Of a stretch of DNA of 64,000 bases, positions 39,950-58,907 are shown piece by piece. The position numbers and the translations under genes are program-made. This DNA is from an uncultured Bacteroidota bacterium (GTDB lineage Bacteria > Bacteroidota > Bacteroidia > Bacteroidales > UBA12077), in contig CAJXLK010000024.1 in assembly GCA_913055635.1 (NCBI GenBank), forward strand, positions 1-64,000, read 5' to 3'. Each line of letters starts with the position of its first letter. Position 1 is the first letter of the stretch. The notes beneath the pieces are model-generated. The model was not told the origin of the DNA. It was given only the letters and a program-made list of their open reading frames with translations, and did not search any database.

Positions 39950-42900
39950 ATGAAGAACATCTACCTTCGGACATTTCGATTGCGCTTACTTCCTAAGATA
40001 CTGCTGCTGACTGGATGGTTTATATTAATTCATTTCTCTTTATGGGGACAAAATTTGACCATAGATCCTCCCCATGATGCTGATTCAACTTTTGTGATTA
40101 AGGATACTGTATATCAAGATAAAATAAATACAGGAGCTGCAAGTGGAACCTTTATATCTGGAACAGGCGTATTAAATTTCAATAATAATACCGCAGATTA
40201 TAATCCTTCACTCGCAGGTGTCGGGATTGATTCCATTATATATGAAAAGAATTCAAGCTATGATACCCTCGCAATCCGGGTTATCCCTTACATCAGTTAT
40301 GACACCACCTTCACGGCATGTGAGAACGATGGGGCTTTTAACATCAATCATGCGGTAGATACACCAACGACGGGGACTCCACATTACTATGGGACTGGCG
40401 TAAATTCTTCAACCAATGAATTTGAGCCCCTTTCAACCTCCGGACACTCCGGTTCGCCCTATAAAATATACGCGGAAAAGAGCGTTACGGTGGGCAGCAA
40501 TACCTTTACCAATACCGATTCGACTACTGTAACGCTGAAGGCTGCGCCAGACCCTTTTTCCTTAATGAAGGATACGGCTTACTGTCCTTCACAGGGTGGG
40601 GTGAAATTGTGGATGGAAAATACCCAGAACAATTCTTATCAATATGTATTACAAAAAGGAGGTGCCGATATAGATACGGTTCCGGGCGAGACTGATTCGG
40701 TGGCTTTTCCCGGAACCTATACTGCCGGCAGCTATACGGCTTATGCTTATGTAGGGGGATGCAGCACCCCCATGAACGATACGGTTACAGTCTCAGAAAT
40801 AACGGCTGATTCGCCCAACCTGGAATACATCACCGATTCAGCCTTTTGTCCGGGTGGGGCCGGCGTTGAATTGGGACTTGATTCCAGTGAGGTAGGGGTC
40901 AATTATATCCTCCAGCAGAATGGGGTGGATGAAACGACTGTGGCGGGTACTGGTTCGGCCATTTCTTTTGGAACATACTATGATTCGACCGGCCATTATG
41001 CTGTAGAGGCCACCAATGGGGTTTGTGACACATCCTTGAACGATACCCTGAAAATTTATAAGAAGAATGAACCGGAAGTTTATACACTTGACGGCCCGGG
41101 AGGTTTTTGCCAAGGGGAGTCCAGTATCAAACTCTATCTGCCCAACTCTGAAACCGGCATTCGGTATGATCTTATAAAAGATGGCAGCAAATTTACTGAT
41201 CAGTATGGCAGTACCGGTGATTCGGTTATTTTTTCAATTACCAGCACAGACACTTATCATGTTATAGGTGTTGATACTGCCACAGATTGCACAAGTCCCA
41301 TGGATGACACCCTAGATATTGTGGATTATTCGCCGGTCAATGCTTCGGTGGCTTTTACAGATTCCACTATATGTAATGGCGAATCAATTGTGCTGGAAGC
41401 AAGCGGTGGAGATAGTGCCTACAGTTGGACCCCGGTTTCTTCCCTGGAGACATCTTCCACTATCAGTAATCCCGAGGCCCAGCCTTCTAATACCACAACT
41501 TACGAAGTGGTTGTTACAGATGATAATGGATGTCAGGAAACCAAGGCGGTAGATGTTACTGTAGCCGGAATACCTACAGCCAATGCCGGGACAGATACTT
41601 CAGTATGTAAAGGGGATAGTGTGCAGTTGGTAGCAGACGATGTAACAAGCTCTTTTCCTGATGCATCGTATTCATGGACACCTACAAGTACCCTTACGGA
41701 TCCAACCAAGCGGAAAACCTATGCTGATCCAGAAACCCCTACCCAATATACCCTCGAAGTAACAAGCAAATTTGGATGTTCCAGCACCGATCAAATTACG
41801 GTGGATACCAACGCTGTCCCTAATCCTTCATTGTCTGATTATACGGTATGTAACGGTGAAAGTGTTACTCTTAAAGCCTCAGGAGGCAATTCTTATTACT
41901 GGCCGGATCTTGATACCACAGCTCAGTCTGTTACAGTTAGCCCGAATTCAACCCGCGATTATACTGTGGAAGCTTCCTATACCAATGGATGTTCTGGTAC
42001 TACCGACGGGCAGGTTCAGGTAAATCCTACCCCTACGATTACAGCTACTGCTACAAAAAATCCCGTTTGTGCCGGGCAAATGGATACAATTAATACAACT
42101 GTTTCCGGAGGTACTAAACCCTATCAGTCTTATGCATGGAGTCCATCTGGTTCCGGAGACCAGGTGGATTTTCAGGCGCCTACCGGCGTGTCCGAGGTCA
42201 CTTATGGCGTTACTGTGACGGATAACAATAATTGCCAGGATTCAACTTCGGTGACTGTGGATATAAATGCGTTGCCTAATGTTTCCATAAGTGGCCTGGA
42301 TAGTGAATATTGTTCGGATGAAGGACCTGATCACATTTACGGAACTCCCGAAGATGCAAATGGTGAATTTTTACCTGCTTCTTATGTCACTGATGATGGT
42401 GATGGAACTGGGGTATTCGATCCATCAGCATTGTCTCCTGGTAATTATACTATTGCGTATCGATATAAAACAGATCCACAGGGTTGTGTGGATAGTGCAT
42501 TAGCTACCACTACCATTTCTTCCGATACCATACCCGATCCATCCATAAACGGGCTCGATAGCACCTATTGCGACAATGATGCCAGCACCTATATTATCAC
42601 GGGAAGCCCTGAGGGTTCCGGTGGCAGTTTTACCTATAGTCCGGCTTCCGGCATAACCGATAATGGATCGGATACTGCTTATCTGACACCCCAGGATGTG
42701 GGCACAGGAGATCATACCATCACCTATACCTACACCAGTCCTTCGGGAGGATGTTCGGCCTCCGTTACCGAAACCTTCCAGATTGGCGTGCCATTTACCT
42801 TCAACCTTGCTTCGAATTATTGCGCCAGCCAGGATACGTTTCAGCTTATGGTTGATAAGCCGTCGAATACAGCACCGGGGAAATTTTATGTATACGATGA

Positions 42901-45900
42901 AGATGGTGACAGCATCTTATATAGTGCTAAGGAGGGTACATCTGAAGCTGTTTTTGATCCCTCTTCCCAGGGACCAGGCGTTTATGGGGTCAGGTATGAG
43001 GTGGCCGATACGGTTATGAATTGCAGCAATTCCGATTCAGTTGGGTTTACGGTTCATTCGAATCCTGATGCAGGCTTTACCCTGGATGGGATACCCAATG
43101 ATTCGATGCATTTTCGATATTGTAATAGCGATACAATAATTACCCTCGATGGCCAGGTGAATGATGGCGGTACGTATAACGGTGCGGGTGTTCCCGGGGG
43201 TAGCAACAAATTTGTACCCGGCGATACTACAGCCGGTGATTACTGGCTCACCTATACCTATACCAATTCAACCACCGGGTGTTCCAGTACTGACAGCGCC
43301 CGTGTAACGATCAGACCCTCTCCGGATGTAAGCATTAACGGGCTGGACCCGGGCTATTGTACGAGTCTTGACACGGTCTATGAAATCACGGCTTCTCATG
43401 ATTCCGGTTATTATTCCACCAATCCCTCGAGCGACTCCTCGTTGTTCTATGACAAAGGAAGCGGTCTGGCCGATTTTAATCCTTCAAATGCCCCTTTCAC
43501 CGGAACCTTCGAGATAACATTCACGGCAGTGGGCATGAATGGATGTAGCGGTGATACCACTCGTGCTGTGAGTATTGACGCTCCTCCGGCTGTCTCTATT
43601 ACAGACCTTCCCGATACGCTCTGCTGGAATGCCCCTGCCGACAGTGTATATGGCAATCCTACAGATGCAAACGGGAAATTCATCGGCCCTTCCTTTATAA
43701 AGGATAATGGCGACGGCACGGCGGTCTTTGATCCCGATTCGGCATCCTCCCCGGGTACGTATGATGTTATTTACCGCTATACCACTCCGGTAAGCGGATG
43801 TTTGGAAACCGATACCCAGTCTGTAACGATCCTGCCTCTGCCCAAAACCTATAGCCTGCAAGGTGGTGGCTCCTATTGTTCCGGAACAGGAGGACGGGAG
43901 CTTCGGTTAAGCGGAAGTGACAGCAGCGTGCGTTATCGCCTTTATAAATACGGAAGCTTGGTGGAAGATACATTAAGAAAGGATGACGGTGAATTTACAT
44001 TTGAAGGTACCTGGCTGGCAGGTGGCTATTCTGTTAAAGCCAAAAATACCGGTGGATGCACGGTGGCTATGAACAATACCGATACCATAACAGAAAAGTA
44101 CCCTCCGGAAGATGCTTCTGGTCTTTCAGGTACAGATACCCTGGCGATCGGGGGAACAGGCTCTTATTCGGTACCGGAGCTGCAGCATACCACCAGTTAC
44201 GTCTGGAACCTTCCATCAGGTGTTACCATTTCCTCAGGAAGCGGCAACCGGTCGATAGATGTTTCGGTTGACCCAACGGTCGCGCCGGGGACCGATTCTG
44301 TTTCGGTTTATGGAACAAATGGATCAGGGTGTGGAGATGGAAATCCCGACTATTATGAGGTCTACATACTTCCCAAACCAGAAGCTGTCACCTCCCTTAA
44401 AGGCAAAGATACAGTATGTGCCGGTTCTCAGCCTTTAAACTATGAGGCGGCTCCGCAACCTCTGGATTATGCTGATTCCATCCATTGGACCGTACCCTAT
44501 GGTTTTACCATTACCAGTGGCAGGGAGACCAGCAGCATTGTTTTGGATGTAGCTCCCGACGCTTCTTCAGGCTTTGTTGCAGCCCGCGGTGTTAATGCTT
44601 CGGGAAAAGGCCCTGCTGATTCCATTCATGTTTATGTAAGCGAACCCCCGGAGATAAACGTCAGCGGCCTGAATTCGGCCTATTGCAGCAATGATCCTGC
44701 CACTACGATTGTTGCTACTCCTGATTCCGGCACTTATAGTTCGTCCTGGAGTACCACTGTTTTTGTGGATAGTGGCGATGGTACTGCCCATTTTGATCCA
44801 TCGGGATTATCCGGTGGGTCTCCGTCTACAGATAGCATCCGGTATTCAATCACCAGGAATGGATGTAAGGCAGACACCACTATGGGTGTGACCATCTATA
44901 ATGCACCGGGCGTTGCTATTTCAGGGGTTCCGGACATCATCTGTGAGAATGCCGGCCCTGATACCCTGGAGGGAAACCCGATGGATTCCAACGGGCAATT
45001 CACAGGCACCGGTGTTGAGGATAACGGAGATGGCACAGCGGTTTTCTATCCCGATACCGCCGGTCAGGGAAATCATGCTGTAACCTATAGTTATACCGAT
45101 CCTGCCACCAGTTGCATGAGCGATACGACCTACTATATTTATGTAAAAGAGCCCCCTCAGACATATACCCTCACTGCCGACGGCAGCTACTGTGAGGATA
45201 CCCCCGGCGATACCATCACCCTTTCCGGTGGGGAAACCGGCGTGCGTTATAGCGTTTATGAAGGAGGTACCGCTCTGCTTTATGATACCACCCTTTCGGC
45301 AAATGTGGGGAGCGACTGGGTCATTGATACGGCCTTTACATCGGGCACCTATACGGTCAAAGCAACGGCTAATGGTTGTACAGCATGGATGGACAACTCA
45401 TTGGAGATCACCAAAGCGCTTTTGCCATCTGATGCTAATCCCCTGTCGATGACAGGAACAGATACCGTAATCCTTGACGGAAATGGCTCTTATAGTGTTG
45501 ATCCGATAGCCAACACCACCACCTACCACTGGATAAAACCTTCTTCAGCTGCATTCCAGCTGAAGGAGGACACTACCGATGTAACGATCGACTTTACAGG
45601 CGTCCCCGCCGGCGATCATCAGATCGGGGTGTATGGGGCTAACCATTGTGGTCAGGGAGATACGGCATATTACGACGTTTATATCCTGCCTAAACCTTCC
45701 CAGCCGGATTCGATAAGCGGTGATAGGATAGTCTGTGCGGGAGCTGTAAATGTCACCTACGATGCCCATCCCTATCCACTTGCCCATGCTGACTCTGTAG
45801 AATGGGATGTACCCGGGGGCTTTACAATAGTAGATGGAAAAGGTACCTACCGGATCAAGGTTGATGTGGCCGGTTCCGGAGCTGTTAGCGGTGATATCCG

Positions 45901-48900
45901 TGCCAGAGGTGTCAATGCCTCGGGTAAAGGCCCGTGGGTTTCTTATCCGGTTAGGGTCAAATCGATACCCGATATCAATTTCAGCGGCATTTCTTCCCCC
46001 TATTGTGATTATGCCCCTGAGGATACGATCACGGCCCTTCCCGATTCCGGAAGTTATATTCGTCCCTCTACATGGACTTCGGCAGCCTTACAGGATCTGG
46101 GCAATGGAAAGGCAGTGGTTGATCCCGGAGCACCTGGTGAAGGAAGCTACGAGATTGGCTATGAGATAGATCTGGGCGGTTGTAGTGTGGATACCAGCAT
46201 CCAGGTAGAGATTAACGCAGCGCCGAATGTAACTTTCGATGGTTTGCCCGGAGACACGACAGATCTGTGTAAGAATAGCGGATCCTTATCATTGAAAGGC
46301 AATCTGGCCGATTCCAACGGATATTACAAGGGTGCCGGCATTAATGACCATCATGACGGTACAGCCACTTTGGACCCGACCCATTTATCTTCCGGAGTAT
46401 ATGATATTGCCTACCACTATGTCGATACCACTTCAGGATGTATGGATACAGCCACTCAACAGGTAAGGATATTGAAAGCACCGCAGAATTATGCTTTGAA
46501 AACAGTATCAGGAGAATATATTTATTGTGAAGATATGCCGGGACTTGAGTTTAAGCTGAGTGGCGGTGATAGTGCAGTAACCTATGATCTGATTAAAAAT
46601 GATAAAAATGATGTTGCTTCTCGCACTTTGAGCAGTGATGGCTCATTCACCTTTAATGGTTATTGGGAAGAAGGCACTTATTCTGTGTATGCTGTTACTT
46701 CCAGGGGATGTAAGGATACCATCAGCAATACGGTAACAACTTATGAAAAGGCCCTTCCTGAACCGGCGCCCCCGATCTGGGGTGACAGTATAGTACCGGT
46801 GAATGACAGTGGCTCGTATCATGTGGCTCCTATAGCAAATTCTTCCTCCTATCAGTGGATTTATCCATCTGATGCTTCGATTACCGGTAATGGATCCCGC
46901 GAGGTTGCCATATCCTTTGATTCTGCCGGGCTGGATTCTGTTGGAGTTTATGGCCGGAATGATTGTGGACAGGGAGATACTTCCTATTTTAAAGTAGATG
47001 TTCTGGACAAACCGGCACCCATTGATTCCTTAGCAGGAGATACATCGGTTTGTGCCGGATCTGTCAACCTCGAATACGAAGCTTTCCCTGGACTCACCCG
47101 GATTGATTCGATTGAATGGATTCTGCCAAATGGTTTTACTATCACTTCCGGCAAAAAAACTCAAAGCATTGAAGTAAGCATAGACAGCTCTTTTGCGGAT
47201 AATGGATATGTCGTGGCCAGGGGTGTTAATGGTGCCGGCAAGGGAAAGGCAGATTCACTGTTTGTAAGGGTTCATCCCATCCCAGCCACCAATAGCGTAA
47301 GTATTTCAGGAGAATTGACCTGTGCAGTGGATTCGGTATTGATAGATGGAAACAGCACTACCTCCGGTGCAAGTTATACCTGGGTGGGTGGTAACAAAAC
47401 CGTTCATGATGATTCTGTCTATGCTCCGCTGAAGGGCGAATATACGCTGACGGTGGAAGCCTATGGTTGTACCCACGACACCACTGTAACGGTTACCGAA
47501 AACAAAACCACCCCTTCGGCCGGCATCGCCACCCCGGATACACTGACCTGTGATAACCCACAGGAGACCCTTCAGGCCAGCACCGATGCCGGCAATCCGG
47601 GATTTGTATGGACAGCTGGTGCAGGTGGAAATATCGTCTCGGGCGACTCCACAGCCACCCCAACCGTCGATGCCCCCGGCTCATATACCGTGACGGTGGT
47701 GGATTCAATCAATGGTTGTACCAATACCGCCACGATCACCGTGGAAGAAAATGTGACGCAACCCAGCTTCAGCCTGAATGACCCCAGCGACATCACCTGT
47801 GCCAGGGATACGGCCGTGATATCCACCCCGGGCGTATCAGATGCCACCTATCAGTGGAGCGGCCCCTCCGGCGGCATCGTCAGCGGACAAAACACCGCCT
47901 CCGTTGTGGTTGGTAAGACAGGCGACTACAGCCTTACCGTGACCAAGAACAGCAATGGCTGCAGCCGGACCAAATCAAGAACTGTCAGTTCCGATTCGAC
48001 CCAACCCGCCATCAACAGTTATACAAAAACCGGGGATATCACCTGCCACCACAATCAGGTGAACCTGGAAGTGGATGTGGATACCACCAATGTAAACTAT
48101 ACGTTTGAACCGGTCTCCAGTGGCAACATTGTATCGATCAACAACAACATTGCCACGGTGGATGCTGAAGACCGCTATGCCGTTGTCGCTACCTATGCAG
48201 CTACCGGTTGCAGCATTAGCGATACCCTTAAAGTGAACGATCTGCGCCACCCGGTCAATGTAAACATCGATGCGGCTTTCACCACCCTTACCTGCAACCA
48301 GCCCTATGATACTTTGACGGTGACTTCTGATTTGACCGACAAGGAAGTGGAGTGGAAGGCGACCAATGGCGGCCATATTCATTCGGGCCATTATACCAGC
48401 CAGGCCATTGTGGATTCGGCCGGCAAATATACGGCTACAGTAACCGATACCACCACCGGGTGCCACAATAGTGAATTTGTGGAGGTCAACAAGGATTTTT
48501 CGGCGCCTGTGTTCAACGGCATCACCAAAAATCCGGACAGCCTCACCTGTAAGAGCGATGTTACCCTGGTGGCCGATGTATCCGGTGCCGTTTCCTATTC
48601 CTGGAGCGGGCCTGGAAACATTTCACCTTCCGATCAGGATTCGGTGGAAGTGGATCAACCCGGCACTTATACCCTGGAGGCCACTGCTGCCAATGGTTGC
48701 CCTTCAACCGACAACGTGGCGGTGCCGGCCGATACCAGTTCCCCCTCAATGACCCTGCACACCAATTATGACGATATCACCTGTACCAACCAGAAGAATA
48801 CCCTGGAGGTGTATTCCAGCACCTCGGGCGTTACCTATCACTGGAGCCAGACCACCGGCAGCGGCAACCTCTCGGATAACAATGTCCAGTTTCCCGAAGT

Positions 48901-51900
48901 CGACGGGGCCGGTACCTTTAAGGTGGTGGTTACAGATGCTGACAACGGCTGTACCACCGAAGACCAGGTTAGTGTAGATACCAACTATACCCTGCCGGTT
49001 ATTGACAATTTTGAAGACAACCCCGACAGCATTTCCTGTGCCAACCATACGGTAGAGCTGTTGGGTTCCTCCTCCACCACCAACGCGGATTTGATGTGGA
49101 CGGTAAGCTCGGGCAGCGGCAATATCTATGATGAAACCACTGAAACACCCACCGTGGATAAGAAGGGGGAATACACCCTGACGGTGACCCACCCCACGAC
49201 AGGTTGCCAGGTGGACAGCAGTGTGACAGTCGATAATAATTTTGCTCAGCCCGTTGCAGAGGTCGATCAGAATGTGGGCCAGATCACCTGTAATGTCGAT
49301 ACACTGCAGCTTGACGGCAGTGCTTCGACGGGCGTGAACTTTAACTGGAATGCCGTCAATGGCAGTGCTTTCCATCCGAACGATTCGGTTGCAAAACCCT
49401 ACATCACTTCCGACGGATTGTATATCCTTACTGTGGAGCATCCCCACAGCGGTTGTACGGATAAGGACTCTGTGGAAGTCAAGCGCAACAATTCGGTACC
49501 CAGGATCACGATGGGTGATGTCAGTGCCGACACCCTGAATTGCGCGGTGGACAGTTCCATATTAAAAGTCGATTACGTGGATCAGCCGGATTACTGGTGG
49601 TCAACCACCGACGGGAACATCACCAGCGGGGCCAATACCACCACCGTGGTAGTGGATGCCCCAGGCACCTATACCTTTACCGCTGAAAATCCCACTACCG
49701 GCTGTACCAATTCCAAATCGGTGACCATTGAAGAGGAGACCACCCAGCCCACTTTTACCCTTTCGGCCAATAAATTGACCTGTACGCGCGATACGGTGCA
49801 AATCCATACCGACGTGGGTTATGCCACCGATCCAAGCCGCGTCTCCTACGCCTGGACATCCAGCGGCGGGCAGATCATTTCGGGCGATGAAAACCTGCCC
49901 AATCCCAGAGTAGTTAAGACAGGCACCTACTACCTGACCCTGACCGATGATGTGAACGGATGTACCCGGACCAGGAGCATCAAGGTGACCGCGAGTACCA
50001 CCCCACCAAATGTTTCCCTGGATACACCGAACGATCTGACTTGTTCGCGAACCAGTGTGGACTTGCAGGCCAACACCAATATTTCCGATTCGTCTTACCT
50101 GTGGACCACCACCGGCAGCGGAAATATTGTCAATCAAACCACTGCCACGCCTACGGTGGATGCCATCGGCTGGTATACGGTAAAGGTGACCAACGAGAAG
50201 AACGGTTGTTATAGTGAAGACAGCGTTTATGTGGACAAAAACGTTTCCACACCGGATGTTCATGTGGATCCGTTCAACGACATCACCTGTTCGCGCACCA
50301 CGGTGGAGCTTTTCGGCAGTTCATCACAGGATGTCTACTTTAGCTGGAGCGGCGGACCCGGCAACATCAGCGATCCCAATTCGGCCCTGACCGAGGTGGA
50401 TGGGGCCGGCGATTATACCCTGAAGGTTAAAGACAAGGTCAATGGATGTAGCAACGACACGACCGTCACAGTGGAGGCGCACACCGACCTGCCATCCAAA
50501 CCGGTGGTCAGCGATACCGGCAGTTGCTATGGCCAGGCCAATGTGGCGTTGACCGCCACGGGAAGCAACAACCGCTGGTACAGTGAAGCATCCCAGGATC
50601 CCTCAACCCTTGTAGGGACTGGCGACACCTATACACCGACCATGAGCAGTGTGGGCGATTCGGTCTTTTATGTCACCCAAACCGGCTCCAATGGCTGCGA
50701 GAGCCCGGCCACGGCAGTGACCTATACGGTCTACCCCCTGCCCGATGCGCCTTCGGCAACCGATAAGGAGGTGTGCTTTGGTCAGGCCAATCCCTTCCTC
50801 GAGGGCATGCCTGCCAATTCCGACTATACCATCAACTGGTATAATACCTCCGACAGCCTGCTGTCGACATCTTATCAGTATCAGCCAACCCCAACGGCTC
50901 CCGGGACCTATCCTTTTGGCGTGACCCAGGTGGATGCCAACGGATGTGAAAGCCCGCAAACACAGGCCTATTTCACCATCCATGATCTGCCTCCTGCCCC
51001 GATGGTCGACTCCGATACCCTGCGGGTATGTGAAGGCGCCCCGGCCAAAACCTTTATTGCCCATGGCGACAACATCAGGTGGTACAACACCACCCCGCCG
51101 GCCAGTCCCATCGCCTCGGGCAATATCTTTGAACCCGATGTCAGCGGTGTGGGTCAATATCATTTCTATGTAACCCAGTCCGAATCCTCCACCAGTTGTG
51201 AGAGCGACTATAAGCGGGTGGTCTACATCATTCAGCCCAATCCCGATCCCTATACCCTAAAGGGAGGCGGAACCTATTGTGAAGGCACCGGCGGCAGGGA
51301 GATTTATCTGGACAATTCGGTGGATACGATTTCCTATGAATTGCGGCGCGATGGCAACACCTATATGACCAACATCTCCGGCGATGGCGATTCACTGACT
51401 TTTGGACGGATCAAGCCGGAAGGAACCTATACCGTTTACGGAACGGCGGGCAACGGCTGCACCGCCAGGATGTCGGGAACGGCTGTGATCTCGGTCGATT
51501 CCCTGCCCGAAGCGGCCGGAACCATCGTGGGCGATTCAGTGGTCTGCCAGGGCGCTACAGCCATAGATTACACCGTGCCGGAGATTCCTTATGCCGATCA
51601 ATATGAGTGGAGCGTGCCGGCCGGTGCTGAAATCATTGCCGGGGAGAATGCCAGGACCATTTCGGTCAACTATTCCGATTCCGCTGAGAGTGGCCAAATC
51701 ACCGTTTATGGGGCCAATGCCTGTGGCGACGGGCCTGTGTCAACCGGCCATGCCATTACGGTCAATGCCCTTCCGGGACCGGCCGATAGCATCATGGGCC
51801 CCGGCGGTGTTTGCCAGGGTGCTGACGGGGTCACCTTTGAAGTGCCCAACATTGAAAACGCCTCGGAATATGTATGGTCGGTACCTGCCGGGGCCACCAT

Positions 51901-54900
51901 CGTGGCCGGTGAAGGCTCGCGAACCATTATGGTCGACTTCGACGCCTCCTCCACCGGTGGAATGGTTCAGGTACACGGACGCAACAGCTGCGGCACGGGA
52001 GCCTCTTCACCCGATCATACCATTGATATTACTTCAAAACCCATCATCTCGGCCGAAACTTATCAATCCATCTGTTCTTCTTCCGATTCCCTGATCGCCA
52101 GCGATCCGGGTTCGGCCACCATTCAATGGGCCTTGATCGATGGCCAGGCCAATATCGCCCATCCCACCCAGTTTGAAACAGAGGTGACCAACCTGGGCAC
52201 CGGCCGCAATGCCTTTGAGGTGACCCTCACCCAAAATGGCTGTTCCGATGTGGATACCGTCGTGATCGAGAACAACCAGCGGTTTGTGAATGCCGGTGCT
52301 GATCAGACCCTTTGTTCCAGTTCCTATACCCTGTCGGGTACCCAGCCAGCGAGCGATGTAAGTGGCAATTGGTCGATCGAACAGGGCTCAGCTAGTTTTG
52401 CCGATGCCGGCCGGTATAATACCGAAGTGACCAGTCTGCAGAAAGGGGTGAATGTACTGCGCTGGACCCTCACTAAAAATGGATGCAGAAGCTATGATGA
52501 AGTAACCATCGTTAACGACAGCCCCACCCAGGCCGAGGCAGGCATCAACCAGCAATTGTGCAGCGATTCCACCTATCTGGATGCCAACACACCTTCGCGG
52601 GGTGGCGGGCAATGGACCATTTTAAACGGGTATGTGGATTTTGAAAGCCCAACCGATCCCAATACCCAAATCACCCATGTGGCCAAAGGCGATAACCTGC
52701 TGCAGTGGACCATCACCAATAATGCCTGCAGCACGGCCGATACGGTTTCCATTGTCAACAATAAAGTAGAAGTGGAAGCTGGCCCCGATCAGGTCATCTG
52801 TGGCTATCAAACAACCCTCGATGCTTTGACTCCTGCCAAGGGAGACGGGCAATGGTCCATCCTCAGAGGATCGGCCACCTTTGAAAACCGTTCCGATCCG
52901 AAAACCAAGGTATACCTGTTGGTCTCCGATACTACCGTCCTTTCCTGGGATGTATACCATAACGGATGTGTCTCAAGCGACAGCATGACCATCGTCAACA
53001 ATTCGCCCACCAAAGCGGATGCAGGTGACGACCAGGAGATATTCCAGGATCATACCTTCATGGAGGCCAACGATCCTTCAAAAGGTTCGGGTGAATGGAA
53101 ACTGCTGGCCGGGTCAGCCAATATCTCAGATAAGACCAGCCCCTCTAGTGAAATTACCAACCTGGCTTACGGGGAGAACCTGTTCCAGTGGAAAGTGACC
53201 TATAAGAATTGCATCTCCATTGATTCTGTAGTTATTGATAACCAAAGCACCGGCAACATCACCGCCGGCAACGATACCACCATTTGTACCGATGAAATGC
53301 GGCTCAGTGCTTCCGAGCCGGTCCAGGGCGAAGGCGAATGGTCTGTGGTGAAAGGCTCCGGCACCTTTGGAGATAAAAATTCCAATACCACGATGGTTCG
53401 GAATCTCTCGCGGGGTGAAAATGTCCTTAAATGGACCATCATTGGCAACGGGGTGATTTCGGACAAGGTGACCATCATCAATAACGCCCCCACCCAGGCC
53501 AATGCCGGTCCGGATATGACCTATTGCCAGGATTCGGCGGAACTTTCTGCCAATCATGCTTCCATTGGCCAGGGTAAGTGGAAGTTGATCGCCGGAGAAG
53601 GCACCTTTGAAGATACCACGGCCAATAACACCATGATTCATAATTTGGGCACCGGTAAAAACACTTTGCGTTGGACCATCACCAACCAAAAATGCCAATC
53701 CACCGATGACGTGGTGATTACCAACAACAAGCCCACGACGGCGGATGCCGGTGTGGATCAAACCCTTTGTTCAAGCGAGGCCACCCTTTACGGCAACTCA
53801 CCTTCTGTGGGTCAGGGCCTGTGGACCCTGGTCAGTGGTTCGAATTCCGTGGAATTTCAGGATCAGACGGTGGGCAATACCCGGGTTACAAACCTGGGCC
53901 GGGGTGAAAACACCCTGCGCTGGACCATCACCAATGGCAATTGTGTCTCTTCGGATTCGGTAACCATCATTAATGACAACCCGACACCCGCCAATGCCGG
54001 CCGGGATAAATCCATCTGTGTGGATTCCTTCGAGCTCAATGCCAGTGAAGCGGTGATTGGCCAGGGCACATGGACCGTGATCAATGGTTATGGAGAATTT
54101 GTCGATTCATCGCGGCACAACACCCAGGTCAGGAACCTGGATAAAGGAGGTAATGTTTTACGTTGGAGCATTGAGCATAACGGATGTATTTCGTACGATG
54201 AAGTCGAGATCTCCAATGACCTGGTAGAAGCTGAGGCCGGCTATGATCAGAGCCTTTGCACCGACAGCACGTATCTCTCGGCCAATAACCCGGGTCGTGG
54301 GGAGGGCTACTGGTCAGTGATTACCGGATCGGCCTCTTTCGAAGACGCTTCCGATCCCAATACCAATGTAAAAGGATTGGATCACCGCAGCGACAACATC
54401 CTGAAATGGACTGTTTCTCATAAGTCGTGTGTCTCGACCGATCAGGTCACCATTGAGAACAACAGCCCGGGCATTGTTTATGCCGGTGAAGATGCCGAAG
54501 TGTGCGATGATGTTTATTACCTGAGCGCCAACCCGAATTACATCGGTGAAGCCCATTGGGAAGCTTTGAGTGGTGGGGCAGATATTGTCAAAGATTCTTC
54601 GGCCAATACGATGGTCAAGGATATGGGTCTTGGGCGCAACACCTTCCGTTGGACGGTTCGTCGGGATGGATGTGTCAAGCACAATGATGTGACCATTTAC
54701 AACAATATGCCGGTGGATGCCTATGCCGGGGAAAATGACACCATTTGCTCCACAACCACCACGATGCACGCAGAAGAGCCCCCGTTTGGCACCGGTCAGT
54801 GGAGTGTGGTGGCCGGCTCCGGTGAGTTTGCCAACGACAGTGCCGGCAATACCACGGTTACCAACCTTTCCCAGGGGGCCAATACTTTCAAGTGGTCCAT

Positions 54901-56485
54901 CTACAACGGCCGTTGCTCAACCACAGATGAGGTGACCATTGTGGTCAACCGGCCCAATGAGCCACGCGCTGGCGCCGATCAGGCCATTTGTGCCGATTCA
55001 ACCTCCCTCCAGGCCAATTATCCCGGTCCGGGCCAGACCGGCCGCTGGGAGGTGGTCGAAGGAAGCGGTAAGTTTGAAGACCGGAATGACCCCCATACCA
55101 AGGTTACCCATATGAGCCATGGAGATAACATTTATCGGTGGAACATCAGTTATAAGCAATGCAACCTCTATGATGAGGTAACCATCACCAATAAGATGCC
55201 CACTGAGGCCGACGCCGGTCAAAACATCGACGTATGCGGCGACCAGGTGCGCCTGAATGCCGTTCAGACTTCCATCGGCAACGGTCACTGGAGCCTGGTC
55301 AGCGGACAGGCTGAATTTGGAGACAGGAACGATCCCAATACAGTGGTCAGTAACCTGGGGTATGGACCCAATACCCTTCGATGGGAAACCACCCACGGTG
55401 AATGCACTTCCATGGATGAGATCATCGTCTCCAATAAAAAGGCCACGGCCTATGCCGGTGTTGACCAGGAAGTATACCGGGATTCCACCACCCTGGTGGC
55501 CAATAAGGCCATCCGCGGCGAGGGTACCTGGATCCTGCTGGGTGGCTCCGGTACATTTGCCCAGCCCCATTCGGCGCAAACCAAAGTGCGCGACCTCACC
55601 AATGGAGTCAACACATTCCGGTGGCAAATCAACAATGATGGATGCATCTCAGCCGATGAGGTGAGCATTACCTATTACGAAATGCCCAATCCTGAGTTCG
55701 ACGTCAGCCGGGACAATGGTTGCCCACCCCTTACGGTTCAGTTCTACAACGAATCGCTGAAGCTGAATACCGACTTTACCTGGAGATTCGGCGATGAGAA
55801 CATTTCAACCAATGAAAATCCGCGACATACATACTATCAACCCGGCCGCTACGAGGTCACTCTTAAGACCCAGGGCCCCGATGGCAGCAGTGTTTCCGAA
55901 GACACCACCATCGTGGTGCACGATCTGCCCGAAGCCCGGTTTGATGTGGCCCCCGATGTGCTCTATATTCCCGAACAGCACCTGCAGTGCTATGACATGT
56001 CCATTGATGCCGATCGCTATAAATGGCATTTCGGGGATGATTCCACATCCAACGAACCCAGCCCCATGCACCACTACCGCGATACCGGTACCTATGACAT
56101 CCGCCTGAAGGTTTGGTCACCCCACGGCTGTACCGATGATACGGTGAAACATGATGCAGTTACCGTCAAGCAAAGTGGTAAGATTAAGTTCCCCTCGGGC
56201 TTTACGCCCAATCCCAGCGGTCCGGTCGGGGGGCATTATAATGAAAACTCAAAGAGTAACAATATCTTCCATCCCATCGTAAAAGGAGTAAATGAATACC
56301 ACATGGAAATATTCAACCGGTGGGGCGTCAAGGTCTTCAGCACCGATAAGGTCGATGTTGGCTGGGATGGCTACTATAAAGGCAAACTTGCTGAAGAAGG
56401 TGTCTATATTTATAAGGTTCACGGAACCTACAACAATGGCACCCGGTTCGAAAAAGTTGGTGATTTTGTTTTAATCAGGAAGTAA
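39950..56485 (+). CDS. SprB-like giant adhesin (5511 residues), type B T9SS cargo
   Basis: This is the largest gene in the window. Signal peptide to about residue 34. Residues 35-1120 are mixed PKD/Ig-like and SprB-type modules (SGLDSEYCSDEGPDHIYGTP...). Residues about 1124-2447 are three copies of a five-module block. Residues about 2450-3513 are thirteen modules with an ITCxxDTxxL start, about 80 residues each. Residues 3513-4100 are mixed. Residues about 4030-5243 hold fifteen modules with an AGxDQxLCxDSxxLxAN start and LRWTITNxxC end. Then two PKD domains and a CHU_C/type B sorting domain (FPSGFTPNPSGP ... NIFHPIVKGVNEYHMEIF). SprB is the mobile gliding adhesin of Flavobacterium; the 3' neighbour is a PorP/SprF gene, 2 bases on, as in sprB-sprF. 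Whether this organism glides is not shown. Confidence 0.93.
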   Translation: MKNIYLRTFRLRLLPKILLLTGWFILIHFSLWGQNLTIDPPHDADSTFVIKDTVYQDKINTGAASGTFISGTGVLNFNNNTADYNPSLAGVGIDSIIYEKNSSYDTLAIRVIPYISYDTTFTACENDGAFNINHAVDTPTTGTPHYYGTGVNSSTNEFEPLSTSGHSGSPYKIYAEKSVTVGSNTFTNTDSTTVTLKAAPDPFSLMKDTAYCPSQGGVKLWMENTQNNSYQYVLQKGGADIDTVPGETDSVAFPGTYTAGSYTAYAYVGGCSTPMNDTVTVSEITADSPNLEYITDSAFCPGGAGVELGLDSSEVGVNYILQQNGVDETTVAGTGSAISFGTYYDSTGHYAVEATNGVCDTSLNDTLKIYKKNEPEVYTLDGPGGFCQGESSIKLYLPNSETGIRYDLIKDGSKFTDQYGSTGDSVIFSITSTDTYHVIGVDTATDCTSPMDDTLDIVDYSPVNASVAFTDSTICNGESIVLEASGGDSAYSWTPVSSLETSSTISNPEAQPSNTTTYEVVVTDDNGCQETKAVDVTVAGIPTANAGTDTSVCKGDSVQLVADDVTSSFPDASYSWTPTSTLTDPTKRKTYADPETPTQYTLEVTSKFGCSSTDQITVDTNAVPNPSLSDYTVCNGESVTLKASGGNSYYWPDLDTTAQSVTVSPNSTRDYTVEASYTNGCSGTTDGQVQVNPTPTITATATKNPVCAGQMDTINTTVSGGTKPYQSYAWSPSGSGDQVDFQAPTGVSEVTYGVTVTDNNNCQDSTSVTVDINALPNVSISGLDSEYCSDEGPDHIYGTPEDANGEFLPASYVTDDGDGTGVFDPSALSPGNYTIAYRYKTDPQGCVDSALATTTISSDTIPDPSINGLDSTYCDNDASTYIITGSPEGSGGSFTYSPASGITDNGSDTAYLTPQDVGTGDHTITYTYTSPSGGCSASVTETFQIGVPFTFNLASNYCASQDTFQLMVDKPSNTAPGKFYVYDEDGDSILYSAKEGTSEAVFDPSSQGPGVYGVRYEVADTVMNCSNSDSVGFTVHSNPDAGFTLDGIPNDSMHFRYCNSDTIITLDGQVNDGGTYNGAGVPGGSNKFVPGDTTAGDYWLTYTYTNSTTGCSSTDSARVTIRPSPDVSINGLDPGYCTSLDTVYEITASHDSGYYSTNPSSDSSLFYDKGSGLADFNPSNAPFTGTFEITFTAVGMNGCSGDTTRAVSIDAPPAVSITDLPDTLCWNAPADSVYGNPTDANGKFIGPSFIKDNGDGTAVFDPDSASSPGTYDVIYRYTTPVSGCLETDTQSVTILPLPKTYSLQGGGSYCSGTGGRELRLSGSDSSVRYRLYKYGSLVEDTLRKDDGEFTFEGTWLAGGYSVKAKNTGGCTVAMNNTDTITEKYPPEDASGLSGTDTLAIGGTGSYSVPELQHTTSYVWNLPSGVTISSGSGNRSIDVSVDPTVAPGTDSVSVYGTNGSGCGDGNPDYYEVYILPKPEAVTSLKGKDTVCAGSQPLNYEAAPQPLDYADSIHWTVPYGFTITSGRETSSIVLDVAPDASSGFVAARGVNASGKGPADSIHVYVSEPPEINVSGLNSAYCSNDPATTIVATPDSGTYSSSWSTTVFVDSGDGTAHFDPSGLSGGSPSTDSIRYSITRNGCKADTTMGVTIYNAPGVAISGVPDIICENAGPDTLEGNPMDSNGQFTGTGVEDNGDGTAVFYPDTAGQGNHAVTYSYTDPATSCMSDTTYYIYVKEPPQTYTLTADGSYCEDTPGDTITLSGGETGVRYSVYEGGTALLYDTTLSANVGSDWVIDTAFTSGTYTVKATANGCTAWMDNSLEITKALLPSDANPLSMTGTDTVILDGNGSYSVDPIANTTTYHWIKPSSAAFQLKEDTTDVTIDFTGVPAGDHQIGVYGANHCGQGDTAYYDVYILPKPSQPDSISGDRIVCAGAVNVTYDAHPYPLAHADSVEWDVPGGFTIVDGKGTYRIKVDVAGSGAVSGDIRARGVNASGKGPWVSYPVRVKSIPDINFSGISSPYCDYAPEDTITALPDSGSYIRPSTWTSAALQDLGNGKAVVDPGAPGEGSYEIGYEIDLGGCSVDTSIQVEINAAPNVTFDGLPGDTTDLCKNSGSLSLKGNLADSNGYYKGAGINDHHDGTATLDPTHLSSGVYDIAYHYVDTTSGCMDTATQQVRILKAPQNYALKTVSGEYIYCEDMPGLEFKLSGGDSAVTYDLIKNDKNDVASRTLSSDGSFTFNGYWEEGTYSVYAVTSRGCKDTISNTVTTYEKALPEPAPPIWGDSIVPVNDSGSYHVAPIANSSSYQWIYPSDASITGNGSREVAISFDSAGLDSVGVYGRNDCGQGDTSYFKVDVLDKPAPIDSLAGDTSVCAGSVNLEYEAFPGLTRIDSIEWILPNGFTITSGKKTQSIEVSIDSSFADNGYVVARGVNGAGKGKADSLFVRVHPIPATNSVSISGELTCAVDSVLIDGNSTTSGASYTWVGGNKTVHDDSVYAPLKGEYTLTVEAYGCTHDTTVTVTENKTTPSAGIATPDTLTCDNPQETLQASTDAGNPGFVWTAGAGGNIVSGDSTATPTVDAPGSYTVTVVDSINGCTNTATITVEENVTQPSFSLNDPSDITCARDTAVISTPGVSDATYQWSGPSGGIVSGQNTASVVVGKTGDYSLTVTKNSNGCSRTKSRTVSSDSTQPAINSYTKTGDITCHHNQVNLEVDVDTTNVNYTFEPVSSGNIVSINNNIATVDAEDRYAVVATYAATGCSISDTLKVNDLRHPVNVNIDAAFTTLTCNQPYDTLTVTSDLTDKEVEWKATNGGHIHSGHYTSQAIVDSAGKYTATVTDTTTGCHNSEFVEVNKDFSAPVFNGITKNPDSLTCKSDVTLVADVSGAVSYSWSGPGNISPSDQDSVEVDQPGTYTLEATAANGCPSTDNVAVPADTSSPSMTLHTNYDDITCTNQKNTLEVYSSTSGVTYHWSQTTGSGNLSDNNVQFPEVDGAGTFKVVVTDADNGCTTEDQVSVDTNYTLPVIDNFEDNPDSISCANHTVELLGSSSTTNADLMWTVSSGSGNIYDETTETPTVDKKGEYTLTVTHPTTGCQVDSSVTVDNNFAQPVAEVDQNVGQITCNVDTLQLDGSASTGVNFNWNAVNGSAFHPNDSVAKPYITSDGLYILTVEHPHSGCTDKDSVEVKRNNSVPRITMGDVSADTLNCAVDSSILKVDYVDQPDYWWSTTDGNITSGANTTTVVVDAPGTYTFTAENPTTGCTNSKSVTIEEETTQPTFTLSANKLTCTRDTVQIHTDVGYATDPSRVSYAWTSSGGQIISGDENLPNPRVVKTGTYYLTLTDDVNGCTRTRSIKVTASTTPPNVSLDTPNDLTCSRTSVDLQANTNISDSSYLWTTTGSGNIVNQTTATPTVDAIGWYTVKVTNEKNGCYSEDSVYVDKNVSTPDVHVDPFNDITCSRTTVELFGSSSQDVYFSWSGGPGNISDPNSALTEVDGAGDYTLKVKDKVNGCSNDTTVTVEAHTDLPSKPVVSDTGSCYGQANVALTATGSNNRWYSEASQDPSTLVGTGDTYTPTMSSVGDSVFYVTQTGSNGCESPATAVTYTVYPLPDAPSATDKEVCFGQANPFLEGMPANSDYTINWYNTSDSLLSTSYQYQPTPTAPGTYPFGVTQVDANGCESPQTQAYFTIHDLPPAPMVDSDTLRVCEGAPAKTFIAHGDNIRWYNTTPPASPIASGNIFEPDVSGVGQYHFYVTQSESSTSCESDYKRVVYIIQPNPDPYTLKGGGTYCEGTGGREIYLDNSVDTISYELRRDGNTYMTNISGDGDSLTFGRIKPEGTYTVYGTAGNGCTARMSGTAVISVDSLPEAAGTIVGDSVVCQGATAIDYTVPEIPYADQYEWSVPAGAEIIAGENARTISVNYSDSAESGQITVYGANACGDGPVSTGHAITVNALPGPADSIMGPGGVCQGADGVTFEVPNIENASEYVWSVPAGATIVAGEGSRTIMVDFDASSTGGMVQVHGRNSCGTGASSPDHTIDITSKPIISAETYQSICSSSDSLIASDPGSATIQWALIDGQANIAHPTQFETEVTNLGTGRNAFEVTLTQNGCSDVDTVVIENNQRFVNAGADQTLCSSSYTLSGTQPASDVSGNWSIEQGSASFADAGRYNTEVTSLQKGVNVLRWTLTKNGCRSYDEVTIVNDSPTQAEAGINQQLCSDSTYLDANTPSRGGGQWTILNGYVDFESPTDPNTQITHVAKGDNLLQWTITNNACSTADTVSIVNNKVEVEAGPDQVICGYQTTLDALTPAKGDGQWSILRGSATFENRSDPKTKVYLLVSDTTVLSWDVYHNGCVSSDSMTIVNNSPTKADAGDDQEIFQDHTFMEANDPSKGSGEWKLLAGSANISDKTSPSSEITNLAYGENLFQWKVTYKNCISIDSVVIDNQSTGNITAGNDTTICTDEMRLSASEPVQGEGEWSVVKGSGTFGDKNSNTTMVRNLSRGENVLKWTIIGNGVISDKVTIINNAPTQANAGPDMTYCQDSAELSANHASIGQGKWKLIAGEGTFEDTTANNTMIHNLGTGKNTLRWTITNQKCQSTDDVVITNNKPTTADAGVDQTLCSSEATLYGNSPSVGQGLWTLVSGSNSVEFQDQTVGNTRVTNLGRGENTLRWTITNGNCVSSDSVTIINDNPTPANAGRDKSICVDSFELNASEAVIGQGTWTVINGYGEFVDSSRHNTQVRNLDKGGNVLRWSIEHNGCISYDEVEISNDLVEAEAGYDQSLCTDSTYLSANNPGRGEGYWSVITGSASFEDASDPNTNVKGLDHRSDNILKWTVSHKSCVSTDQVTIENNSPGIVYAGEDAEVCDDVYYLSANPNYIGEAHWEALSGGADIVKDSSANTMVKDMGLGRNTFRWTVRRDGCVKHNDVTIYNNMPVDAYAGENDTICSTTTTMHAEEPPFGTGQWSVVAGSGEFANDSAGNTTVTNLSQGANTFKWSIYNGRCSTTDEVTIVVNRPNEPRAGADQAICADSTSLQANYPGPGQTGRWEVVEGSGKFEDRNDPHTKVTHMSHGDNIYRWNISYKQCNLYDEVTITNKMPTEADAGQNIDVCGDQVRLNAVQTSIGNGHWSLVSGQAEFGDRNDPNTVVSNLGYGPNTLRWETTHGECTSMDEIIVSNKKATAYAGVDQEVYRDSTTLVANKAIRGEGTWILLGGSGTFAQPHSAQTKVRDLTNGVNTFRWQINNDGCISADEVSITYYEMPNPEFDVSRDNGCPPLTVQFYNESLKLNTDFTWRFGDENISTNENPRHTYYQPGRYEVTLKTQGPDGSSVSEDTTIVVHDLPEARFDVAPDVLYIPEQHLQCYDMSIDADRYKWHFGDDSTSNEPSPMHHYRDTGTYDIRLKVWSPHGCTDDTVKHDAVTVKQSGKIKFPSGFTPNPSGPVGGHYNENSKSNNIFHPIVKGVNEYHMEIFNRWGVKVFSTDKVDVGWDGYYKGKLAEEGVYIYKVHGTYNNGTRFEKVGDFVLIRK
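43320..47290 (+). repeat. Higher-order repeat in the SprB-like gene: three copies of a ~440-residue block
   Basis: Each block has five modules in the same order, opening at about 43320, 44650 and 45973. Openers are INGLDPGYC, VSGLNSAYC and FSGISSPYC. Next come ITDLPDTLC, ISGVPDIIC and FDGLPGDTTDLC; then SLQGGGSYC, LTADGSYC and LKTVSGEYIYC; then two modules ending with RGVNASGKGP or RGVNGAGKG. Confidence 0.85.
47300..50490 (+). repeat. Thirteen tandem ~80-residue modules in the SprB-like gene
   Basis: Module starts are recognisable as ELTCAVDS, DTLTCDNP, DITCARDT, DITCHHNQ, TLTCNQPY, DSLTCKSD, DITCTNQK, SISCANHT, QITCNVDT, DTLNCAVD, KLTCTRDT, DLTCSRTS and DITCSRTT. Most modules end with a GCT or GCS and an acidic strand. 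Confidence 0.85.
52281..55680 (+). repeat. Fourteen tandem ~81-residue modules near the C-terminus of the SprB-like gene
   Basis: Modules start with AGADQTLC, AGINQQLC, AGPDQVIC, AGDDQEIF, AGNDTTIC, AGPDMTYC, AGVDQTLC, AGRDKSIC, AGYDQSLC, AGEDAEVC, AGENDTIC, AGADQAIC, AGQNIDVC and AGVDQEVY. A divergent copy precedes at about 52040. Two (EIF and EVY) lack the Cys present in the others. Confidence 0.88.
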
Positions 56486-56487
56486 TC

Positions 56488-57477
56488 ATGAAACGTTGGA
56501 TTGTAATCGCATTGATGATAGGGATTTCTTCTGCAGCATTGGGGCAGGATCCCCAATTTTCGCAGTTCTATTCTTCCCCTTTGCATTTGGGCCCCTCCTT
56601 TGCCGGTGCCTCCGGTAAAACCCGGATCTCCCTGAATTACCGCGATCAGTGGCCCAAACTGCCCGGGGTGTTCGTGACCTATGCTTTTGCAGCCGATCAT
56701 TACGCCAAAAGCCTCAATAGCGGATTTGGCCTTTCCTTTATGAATGACCAGGCCGGTAATGGAAAAATATCCACCACCAATGTGGCGGCCAACTATTCTT
56801 ATAATGTGAAACTGAATGAGCGGTGGAATTTTCGCCCCGGCATCAAGTTCTTTTACCACCAATACCACATCGACTATTCCAAGGTGGTTTTCAACGACCA
56901 ATTGGGGTTTGATTATGTGAATCCTTCCTCGGTGGAAGGTCTCCCCCAGGACAGCCGTTTCAGCTATTATGATTTCGGCAGTTCCATCATGTTTTACAAT
57001 TCCCGTTACTGGATAGGGGGTATGGTGGATCATCTGATCAAGGCCAGCCCCTCATTTCAGGACAATCCCAATTATAAACCTTTAAAATACAGCCTGTTTG
57101 GCGGGACCCAGATCCCCCTGGAAAGCCTCCACTATAAGCAGGACCTGCACAGCCTCTATGCTGCCTTTCATTTTAAGTCGCAGCGGAATGTTAGCCAAAT
57201 GGACATTGGGGCTTACTATCAAAAGGAACATTTTTTGGTAGGCCTCTGGTATCGGGGAATCCCCATGATCAGTGAGGCCCATGGCAGCGATGCCATCATC
57301 CTGATGATGGGGTACCGCGATGACAACTTCAGCGTAGGTTATAGTTACGATGCCACCATTTCCCGACTGATTACCAATACCGGTGGGGCCCATGAAATTT
57401 CTTTTACCTATACCTTCTCAGGAAGCGATGTCTTCAACATCAGGGAGTATGAACCCTTGCCCTGTCCGGAGTTGTAA
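56488..57477 (+). CDS. sprF: PorP/SprF-family outer-membrane protein
   Basis: A 329-residue protein with a signal peptide (ending ALGQ) and the family opening DPQFSQFYSSPLHLGPSFAGASG, followed by NYRDQWP, FGLSFMNDQAG and many amphipathic beta strands ending in an outer-membrane barrel pattern. In Flavobacterium johnsoniae SprF is needed for secretion and surface attachment of the SprB adhesin; paralogues pair with other type B cargo. Here it begins 2 bases after the 5511-residue cargo gene, so the two should be co-transcribed and work together. A weak hairpin (CCATA/TATGG, about 57480-57500) follows the stop. Confidence 0.93.
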   Translation: MKRWIVIALMIGISSAALGQDPQFSQFYSSPLHLGPSFAGASGKTRISLNYRDQWPKLPGVFVTYAFAADHYAKSLNSGFGLSFMNDQAGNGKISTTNVAANYSYNVKLNERWNFRPGIKFFYHQYHIDYSKVVFNDQLGFDYVNPSSVEGLPQDSRFSYYDFGSSIMFYNSRYWIGGMVDHLIKASPSFQDNPNYKPLKYSLFGGTQIPLESLHYKQDLHSLYAAFHFKSQRNVSQMDIGAYYQKEHFLVGLWYRGIPMISEAHGSDAIILMMGYRDDNFSVGYSYDATISRLITNTGGAHEISFTYTFSGSDVFNIREYEPLPCPEL

Positions 57478-57612
57478 TTCCATACCATTTTTTATGGGAT
57501 TCTCTAATTGCTTAAAAGGGCTTCTCGCGCTGATGGCTATTGAAGCTGATACTTGTATTGAGAAACCTTTAGCGGGTGAACAATTTTTCCTTTAAGCTGT
57601 TGGAAGATTATA

Positions 57613-57643
57613 TTTGGCGTTTTAGGAAAAGATTGTATATTTG
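57613..57643 (+). promoter_or_regulatory. Promoter of the histidine operon
   Basis: TTTG (57613-57616), exactly 19 bases, then TATATTTG (57636-57643): a perfect fit to the Bacteroides -33/-7 consensus. Transcription should start within a few bases of the leader ATG at 57651, leaving almost no 5' untranslated region. Confidence 0.8.
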
Positions 57644-57650
57644 CCCTGTT

Positions 57651-57719
57651 ATGCTAATCAAACAAAACCATAACCCCCGCGTACACCATCACCATCATCA
57701 CGATGGGGTGACCCCGTAA
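57651..57719 (+). CDS. hisL: First histidine leader peptide
   Basis: A 22-residue open frame (MLIKQNHNPRV, then six His, then DGVTP). The six His codons are codons 12-17 (57684-57701), with another His at codon 7. The stop is TAA at 57717. When charged tRNA-His is scarce, ribosomes would stall on the His run and free the antiterminator segment that begins 2 bases after the stop. It starts 7 bases after the promoter -7 element, with no Shine-Dalgarno sequence, so it may be read from a nearly leaderless mRNA. The CACCATC of the His run can also pair imperfectly with GATGGGGTG, which may serve as a pause hairpin. Confidence 0.92.
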   Translation: MLIKQNHNPRVHHHHHHDGVTP

Positions 57720-57720
57720 T

Positions 57721-57783
57721 GCAAAAAATTGCAAGCGAACGAAGATATCATTCAGGCCCGCAATTTTTTGCGGGCCTTTTTTG
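57721..57783 (+). promoter_or_regulatory. First his attenuator: antiterminator and rho-independent terminator
   Basis: Terminator: AGGCCCGCAA (57754-57763), TTTT, TTGCGGGCCT (57768-57777), then T6. Antiterminator: GCAAAAAATTGC (57721-57732) is perfectly complementary over 12 bases to GCAATTTTTTGC (57760-57771), which is the terminator's loop and inner stem. A ribosome at the leader stop codon (57717-57719) would cover the first segment and allow termination; one stalled on the His codons would leave it free. Confidence 0.9.
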
Positions 57784-57873
57784 TGTGCCATGCATGCGGG
57801 CTGTCGCGTTAAAACAGCAATGGGTTTATTTTTTAATCTGAAGACCTGCAGAAATTTTAACAAATACACATCA

Positions 57874-57948
57874 ATGATTCCATATCAACAACATACTGCT
57901 CACTTCCATCACCATCATCACCATCATCATCACGGGATACCTATCTGA
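57874..57948 (+). CDS. Second histidine leader peptide
   Basis: A 24-residue open frame (MIPYQQHTAHF, then nine His, then GIPI). His codons 12-20 lie at 57907-57933, with two more at codons 7 and 10, making eleven of 24 residues. The stop is TGA at 57946. It lies 90 bases after the first terminator and has no Shine-Dalgarno sequence but an A-rich upstream stretch, as is usual in Bacteroidota. No second promoter is evident, so it would be read only by polymerases that pass the first attenuator. Confidence 0.92.
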   Translation: MIPYQQHTAHFHHHHHHHHHGIPI

Positions 57949-57951
57949 TGA

Positions 57952-58027
57952 GGAAGACAAGCAGTATGCCATAACCTGAGAACCCATTTTTTCAAAGGCC
58001 TGCGGAGACTTCCGCGGGCCTTTTTTG
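57952..58027 (+). promoter_or_regulatory. Second his attenuator: antiterminator and rho-independent terminator
   Basis: Terminator: AGGCCTGCGGA (57996-58006), loop GACT, TCCGCGGGCCT (58011-58021), then a T-run; one T-G pair. Antiterminator: GGAAG (57952-57956), GCAG (57961-57964) and GCC (57968-57970) can pair in order with CTTCC (58009-58013), CTGC (58000-58003) and GGC (57997-57999), 12 pairs with one internal loop and one bulge. It begins 4 bases after the leader stop, matching the spacing in the first attenuator. Confidence 0.85.
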
Positions 58028-58049
58028 TTTCATCCAAATATGATTGAAT

Positions 58050-58907
58050 ATGACCCAATTGAAAATTGCCCTTCAAAAATCCGGCCGGTTGAGCGATAAA
58101 TCGATCGAGCTCATCCGTGAAAGTGGCATCAGCCTGACCAACGGCAACCGGAAGCTTTTATCGCTTTCCGCCAATTTTCCCCTGGAAGTGATGTACCTGC
58201 GCGATGATGACATTCCCCGTTATGTAAGCGATGGGATTGCAGATATCGGGATCGTCGGGGAGAATGTGGTGGAAGAGGAGCAGGCTCCGGTTGAGACCAG
58301 GGAGAAGCTGGGTTTTGCACGGTGCCGGATGTCGCTGGCGGTGCCCAAAACAGAGGCTTATGACGGTCCGGACGATTTCACCGGCAAACGTATTGCCACT
58401 TCGTATCCCACCATCCTGCGGAATTATTTTGCTGAAAAAGGCATCGATGCCGATATCCATCATATCAGTGGATCGGTGGAGATAGCCCCCGGAATTGGCC
58501 TGTCGCACGGTATATTTGACATTGTAAGTTCCGGAAGTACATTGATCAGCAATGGATTGCGGGAAGTAGAAAAAGTAATGGATTCCCAGGCCGTGTTGAT
58601 CGCCCCACCTTCCCTGGAGCAGGAAAAAGAAAAGATCCTGGCGGATTTGCTGTTTCGCATCCGGGCGGTCAAAAAAGCGCGCGACAACAAGTACATCCTG
58701 CTCAATGCCCCCAATGACCGTTTGGAGGAGATCAGCTCCCTGATCCCCGGAATGAAAAGCCCCACCATCATGCCCCTGGCCGATAAAGGCTGGAGCTCGG
58801 TTCATTCGGTGCTGAATGAAAACGATTTCTGGCAGGTCATTGACGCATTAAAGGAAAAAGGGGCGCAGGGCATCCTGGTGGTCCCCATCGAAAAGATGAT
58901 TGTTTGA
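58050..58907 (+). CDS. hisG: ATP phosphoribosyltransferase, long form
   Basis: The enzyme joins ATP and PRPP, the first and feedback-controlled step of histidine synthesis. The 285 residues from the ATG at 58050 match the long (HisG_L) form with a C-terminal ACT-like regulatory domain that binds histidine. Landmarks are IALQKSGRLSDKS, EVMYLRDDDIPRYV, DIGIVGENVV, and the PRPP-loop region ISGSVEIAPGIGLSHGIFDIVSSGSTL. The C-terminal domain covers about 210-285 (SPTIMPLADKGWSSVHSVL). No hisZ is needed for this form. It follows the second attenuator by 22 bases, so control is by both attenuation and feedback. The 171 bases to hisD are A/T-rich with no gene. Confidence 0.96.
   Translation: MTQLKIALQKSGRLSDKSIELIRESGISLTNGNRKLLSLSANFPLEVMYLRDDDIPRYVSDGIADIGIVGENVVEEEQAPVETREKLGFARCRMSLAVPKTEAYDGPDDFTGKRIATSYPTILRNYFAEKGIDADIHHISGSVEIAPGIGLSHGIFDIVSSGSTLISNGLREVEKVMDSQAVLIAPPSLEQEKEKILADLLFRIRAVKKARDNKYILLNAPNDRLEEISSLIPGMKSPTIMPLADKGWSSVHSVLNENDFWQVIDALKEKGAQGILVVPIEKMIV

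Follow-up and report, generated by a model that had tools for sequence, protein, structure and literature searches.

The window, i.e. the whole 64,000-nucleotide (64-kb) stretch of DNA analysed here, contains at 57609-58050 a his leader region that lies between a PorP/SprF-family gene (56488-57477) and hisG (58050-58907, ATG at 58050), with all features of the region on the + strand. hisG, which matches TIGR00070/TIGR03455, opens a his operon with the order hisG-hisD-hisC-hisB-hisH-hisA, in which hisD, hisC, a bifunctional hisB and hisH are identified by NCBIfam and the last listed gene is a putative hisA, named by position and sequence. In this Bacteroidota sequence, a promoter is followed by leader 1, terminator 1, leader 2, terminator 2 and then hisG. 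Leader peptide 1 (MLIKQNHNPRVHHHHHHDGVTP and a stop codon, 57651-57719) has 7 His, 6 of them consecutive (57684-57701), and its intrinsic terminator (57754-57777, or to 57783 with the T tract) consists of AGGCCCGCAA-TTTT-TTGCGGGCCT with a 10-bp stem, followed by TTTTTTG. Leader peptide 2 (MIPYQQHTAHFHHHHHHHHHGIPI and a stop codon, 57874-57948) has 11 His, 9 of them consecutive (57907-57933), and is followed by terminator 2 (57994-58023, or to 58029 with the T tract), which is formed by AAAGGCCTGCGGA-GACT-TCCGCGGGCCTTT with a 13-pair stem, again followed by TTTTTTG. The preliminary description of this DNA had claimed two leaders with six and nine consecutive His, 7 and 11 in total, each with a terminator of its own, and all of this is borne out by the leader and terminator sequences.

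These elements are conspicuous within the window. Runs of at least six CAY codons occur in it twice, exactly at leaders 1 and 2, versus a mean of 0.0 in 200 order-1 Markov simulations, and elsewhere in the 4.08-Mb genome runs of at least five CAY codons are found in two other places only. Both terminators are among the top four terminator-like scores of the window's + strand, and terminator 2 is 97.6% paired. Both modules thus have the two elements of a leader-peptide attenuator that can be read directly, namely a short open reading frame rich in His codons (six and nine) and an intrinsic terminator ahead of the first gene (57754-57783 and 57994-58029).

Some further observations concern the surroundings. 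The two other CAY-rich sites of the genome (C1:4463, C20:61610) adjoin other open reading frames or run antisense to them, and the search around C1:4463 yielded no terminator-like site. A 5S rRNA gene is located at 1968-2116, and the terminator-like hairpin that follows it immediately (2082-2116) is the strongest one on the + strand. Directly upstream of the PorP/SprF-family type IX secretion gene, a single repeat-rich open reading frame of 5511 aa (39950-56485) resembles a secreted adhesin-type protein. Elsewhere in the genome (G000:C1:2963-5977), two neighbouring near-alike open reading frames (MHFTDPLTQTVLVFLL... and MPPTDPLTRTFLVFIL...), apparently for a membrane glycosyltransferase, are probably a tandem gene duplication.

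Single and tandem his attenuators among relatives

The preliminary description had proposed to search Bacteroidota hisG upstream regions for paired His-rich short open reading frames with two terminators. The order Bacteroidales was sampled evenly, which gave 134 hisG loci with sufficient upstream sequence. Among these, a single His leader with terminator is the rule (91 loci), 30 loci have none by the criteria used, and 13 loci, which belong to seven family codes (f1, f14, f33, f41, f48, f65, f115), have two complete modules. Eight further tandem loci were fetched separately (G002, G003, G011, G014, G018, G019, G021 and the Salinivirgaceae MAG BM715), resulting in 21 tandem loci; one of them, G018, apparently is the same contig as Marinilabiliales BM718, as position and leaders are identical. 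The reading as two complete his attenuators in tandem is supported by these 21 loci, in which the layout is kept and both modules retain His runs, terminators and antiterminator pairing. G192 and G170 are weaker-looking tandems. In case of G170, two similar short leaders, MRNLYFNNNHHYLPENR and MRNYFNINHFNYHHPMEKVQR, are found about 370 to 20 nt before hisG, with few His codons and each ahead of a terminator, and this locus is possibly a tandem with weak His runs that came about by duplication. Of the named loci of the phylum, 77 had sufficient upstream sequence: 55 of them carry a single module, 20 carry none by the same criteria, and BM715 and BM718 are the only two tandems, with no tandem outside Bacteroidales in this set. 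The single his attenuator is the normal state in the phylum.

If the tandem state is mapped onto a HisG tree, a quick one, 8 changes are required, and well-supported branches force at least 3 of them; the number does not separate gains from losses. G001, which belongs to the same genus as the genome of the window, has one module only, which resembles module 2 and directly follows the end of the same PorP/SprF gene. Within the genus, the residues that flank the His runs diverge and the His runs are kept in both leaders, and the His counts of leaders 1 and 2, from which (7 and 11 in the window) the preliminary description had suggested different thresholds, vary among relatives. The two modules of a locus resemble each other no more than modules from different families do, which speaks neither for nor against an origin by recent duplication.

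Predicted pairing of the antiterminator segments

An attenuator further needs an antiterminator segment that is exposed by the stalled ribosome and excludes the terminator. Such segments exist in silico in both modules, as judged with a folding measure that is uncalibrated (see below). In module 1, the upper part of terminator 1 (GCAATTTTTTGC) has its complement in the segment TGCAAAAAATTGCA (57720-57733), with TGCAAAAAATTGC pairing with GCAATTTTTTGC (duplex p=0.03). In module 2, the segment GAGGAAGACAAGCAGTATGCC (57950-57971) pairs with both arms and the loop of terminator 2, in that GGAAG...GCAGTATGCC pairs with GGCCTGC...CTTCC (duplex p=0.04). It had been stated that the segments begin 2-4 bases after the leader stops; both are indeed present, but that of module 1 begins at 0-1 nt. 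In relatives, the module 2 antiterminator overlaps the last leader codons and the stop.

For a broader assessment, the stretch from the His run to the terminator was paired with the terminator 5' arm and apex in 43 modules, and growing-transcript folding was carried out with the ribosome stalled on the second His codon or positioned on the stop codon. Most of the 43 modules beat their shuffles in the duplex test. In the stalled state, a mean of 14.2 pairs was obtained versus 8.2 in shuffles (Wilcoxon p=2e-13, whereby the relatedness of the loci means that p-values overstate independence), and all 43 modules were above their own shuffled mean. The mean in the stop state was 3.6 pairs, and the stalled state was higher in all but one of the modules. 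For module 1 of the window, 14.3 pairs are expected in the stalled state, compared with 6.3 for shuffles and 3.7 when the ribosome is placed on the stop codon. Antiterminator 2 is the weaker one of the window, as 10% of shuffles reach it in growing-transcript folding. In an alignment of seven genomes, 92.9% of cells of this antiterminator are paired versus 32-41% if it is slid by 1-3 columns, and the helix shows an A-U to G-C double change in G003, with a shuffle control for these seven sequences of 63/500, which is not significant.

Equilibrium folding was uninformative for the comparison of stalled and stop states, as in these calculations the full terminator prevailed in nearly every case. 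Since the equilibrium favours the complete terminator, the switch must be kinetic. Kinetic switching is usual for attenuators. With E. coli hisL as positive control, the same folding measure did not separate the stall and stop states because the hisL switch runs through more segments, and the measure is thus uncalibrated and supportive only.

In module 2, there is an additional pairing around the His run: segment 1 (CATACTGCT, 57891-57899) can pair with AGCAGTATG, which lies 3' of the leader stop, resulting in a perfect 9-bp protector (1:2) helix (p=0.01 versus shuffles) that would hold the antiterminator segment when the ribosome is absent. The CATAC/GTATG pair is clear in this module, in G014, in BM715 and in a few others. 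As many modules do not have it, a 1:2 protector helix of this type was dropped as a general rule.

A probable shared transcript with two decision points

With the -7 and -33 consensus elements of Bacteroidota (PMC7366714), the main promoter was assigned to 57614-57643, with a -33 TTG, a 19-nt spacer and the -7 box TATATTTG at 57636-57643 (9/9 consensus positions, p=0.03 versus shuffles). The same box is found 6-7 nt before ATG 1 also in G002 and G003. Another candidate -7 box, an exact TAnnTTTG match with the sequence TATATTTG, is located upstream at 57609-57616, and its TTTG also occupies the -33 position of the next promoter. The proposed promoter before leader 1 is there, but with two candidate -7 boxes in place of one. 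The main -7 box ends 7 nt before ATG 1, and the spacing in G002 and G003 is nearly the same, so that the mRNA from which leader 1 is translated may be leaderless or close to it. The start site is likely at about 57649-57651. Alternatively, with the box at 57609, the 5' UTR would be about 29 nt long.

A second promoter at 57784-57873 had been named in advance as the case that would turn the two leaders into independent alternatives. No exact TATATTTG box exists between leaders 1 and 2, and the best promoter-like site in the 96-nt gap from terminator 1 to leader 2 reaches 7/9 with p=0.61, i.e. chance level. Most relatives do not even have the room, as only 7-41 nt separate terminator 1 from ATG 2 in 15 of the 21 tandem loci, so that a separate promoter would have to sit inside terminator 1. 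What speaks for parallel, alternative transcripts, with an own promoter for each attenuator, is the promoter-sized gap of 96-186 nt in the window, G002 and G236, together with the near-match TATTTTTT at 57827 between the leaders of the window; however, G002 and G236, which have the two longest gaps, reach best scores of only 4/9 and 5/9, and we regard such an arrangement as improbable. The short gaps and the chance-level sites indicate that leaders 1 and 2 most likely are on one shared transcript.

Even on a shared transcript, module 1 might be a passive leftover of a duplication or operon rearrangement without present regulatory effect, as modules come and go: module 1 is absent in G001, and terminator 1 is weakened in G192. 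This is very unlikely, as in divergent families the His runs, the terminator and the antiterminator are no less well kept in module 1 than in module 2, and as terminator 1 would stop most transcripts anyway unless relieved. Module 1 could also mainly yield a short terminated RNA or a peptide that acts in trans, with the cis effect being secondary. Attenuator leader peptides can act in trans, with peTrpL of Sinorhizobium as a reported case (PMC7298713), but leader peptide 1 is, except for the His run, unconserved even within the genus, which speaks against a trans-acting peptide, and such a role appears extremely unlikely.

It is thus very probable that the region contains two attenuators that are ribosome-mediated, respond to His-tRNA and follow each other on one transcript, with read-through multiplying. 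This reading builds on the anatomy of the modules, their conservation and complementarity and the lack of promoter room in most relatives, from which we infer two states, ribosome stalling, a shared transcript and a multiplicative output. The transcript would start upstream of leader 1, and both modules would sense how much tRNA-His is charged. With ample histidyl-tRNA, the ribosome would reach the leader stop and cover the antiterminator segment, and the terminator hairpin would form. When histidyl-tRNA is scarce, the ribosome would stall on the His run, the antiterminator would pair with the terminator 5' arm and apex, and the polymerase would read on. As the polymerase would have to pass both decision points, read-through fractions would multiply, which should reduce expression in the uninduced state and make induction steeper and more digital. 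This steeper response is suggested by the logic of a series and by the behaviour of same-ligand tandem riboswitches (PMC9481103). A toy model, whose numbers illustrate the logic only, assumes equal modules with a basal read-through of 5% and yields for the tandem a basal level of 0.25% and an apparent Hill coefficient of 1.9 versus 1.3. The fact that G001, in the same genus, manages with one module argues against the series reading.

The recurrent doubling across families looks like a selected means towards a tighter off state and sharper induction. We lean slightly towards the broader view that Bacteroidales repeatedly evolved same-signal tandem leader-peptide attenuators as graded-to-digital converters for histidine biosynthesis, in which gain and loss of modules would tune the dose response between species, as a ribosome-mediated counterpart of pseudo-cooperative tandem riboswitches.

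Comparison with known systems

According to the textbook, attenuation involves one attenuator per operon. Related species in which the same gene is preceded by either one module or two represent a natural experiment, and by such a comparison it is measurable how a second decision point affects the basal level, the range and the steepness. The survey also shows the frequency of his attenuators in a phylum for which few descriptions of them exist. In Flavobacterium, transcriptome data revealed a structured hisG leader that is conserved in Flavobacteriaceae, and leader-peptide attenuation was suggested before amino-acid operons (PMC9723704). Such single his attenuators of Bacteroidota have the same place and the same kind of leader and terminator, and each module of the window looks like one of them, whereas here two complete ones follow each other. 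In a paper on the his genes of the Bacteroidota superphylum, attenuation comes up a single time, with reference to enterobacteria (PMC8305728). The preliminary description knew of no described tandem his attenuator, and in agreement with this, none was found in a search of mainly open-access literature, with subscription papers mostly outside its range.

The enterobacterial hisL (Rfam RF00514 His_leader) shares with the modules the His-run leader, the intrinsic terminator, the competing pairing and the position directly before hisG, but it is present in one copy and its switch has more segments. His_leader is the best Rfam match to module 2 and a weaker match to module 1, and with 26 and 19.9 bits versus a gathering score of 49 both modules are far below the threshold; they would work like RF00514 but are not filed as members. 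The tandem attenuators mgtM and mgtP of Salmonella mgtCBR, which act additively and have been called a singular example (PMC3641672), are alike in that two leader open reading frames with attenuators are located in one mRNA leader; in the window, a common leader mRNA is probable, as two modules follow each other with no promoter between them by sequence. mgtCBR responds to two signals (ATP and proline) without usual intrinsic terminators, whereas both leaders of the window have His runs, and one signal would be read twice.

The sensing of one signal twice in series is known from Enterococcus, where double T-boxes precede his transporter operons (PMC9413887), and from same-ligand tandem riboswitches, which are pseudo-cooperative and give a steeper response (PMC9481103). 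These systems sense tRNA or ligand directly by RNA, whereas in the window a ribosome would stall on a leader open reading frame. Double T-boxes and pseudo-cooperative tandem riboswitches are the nearest same-signal designs, and ribosome-mediated attenuators would join them as the same design, implemented by different means.
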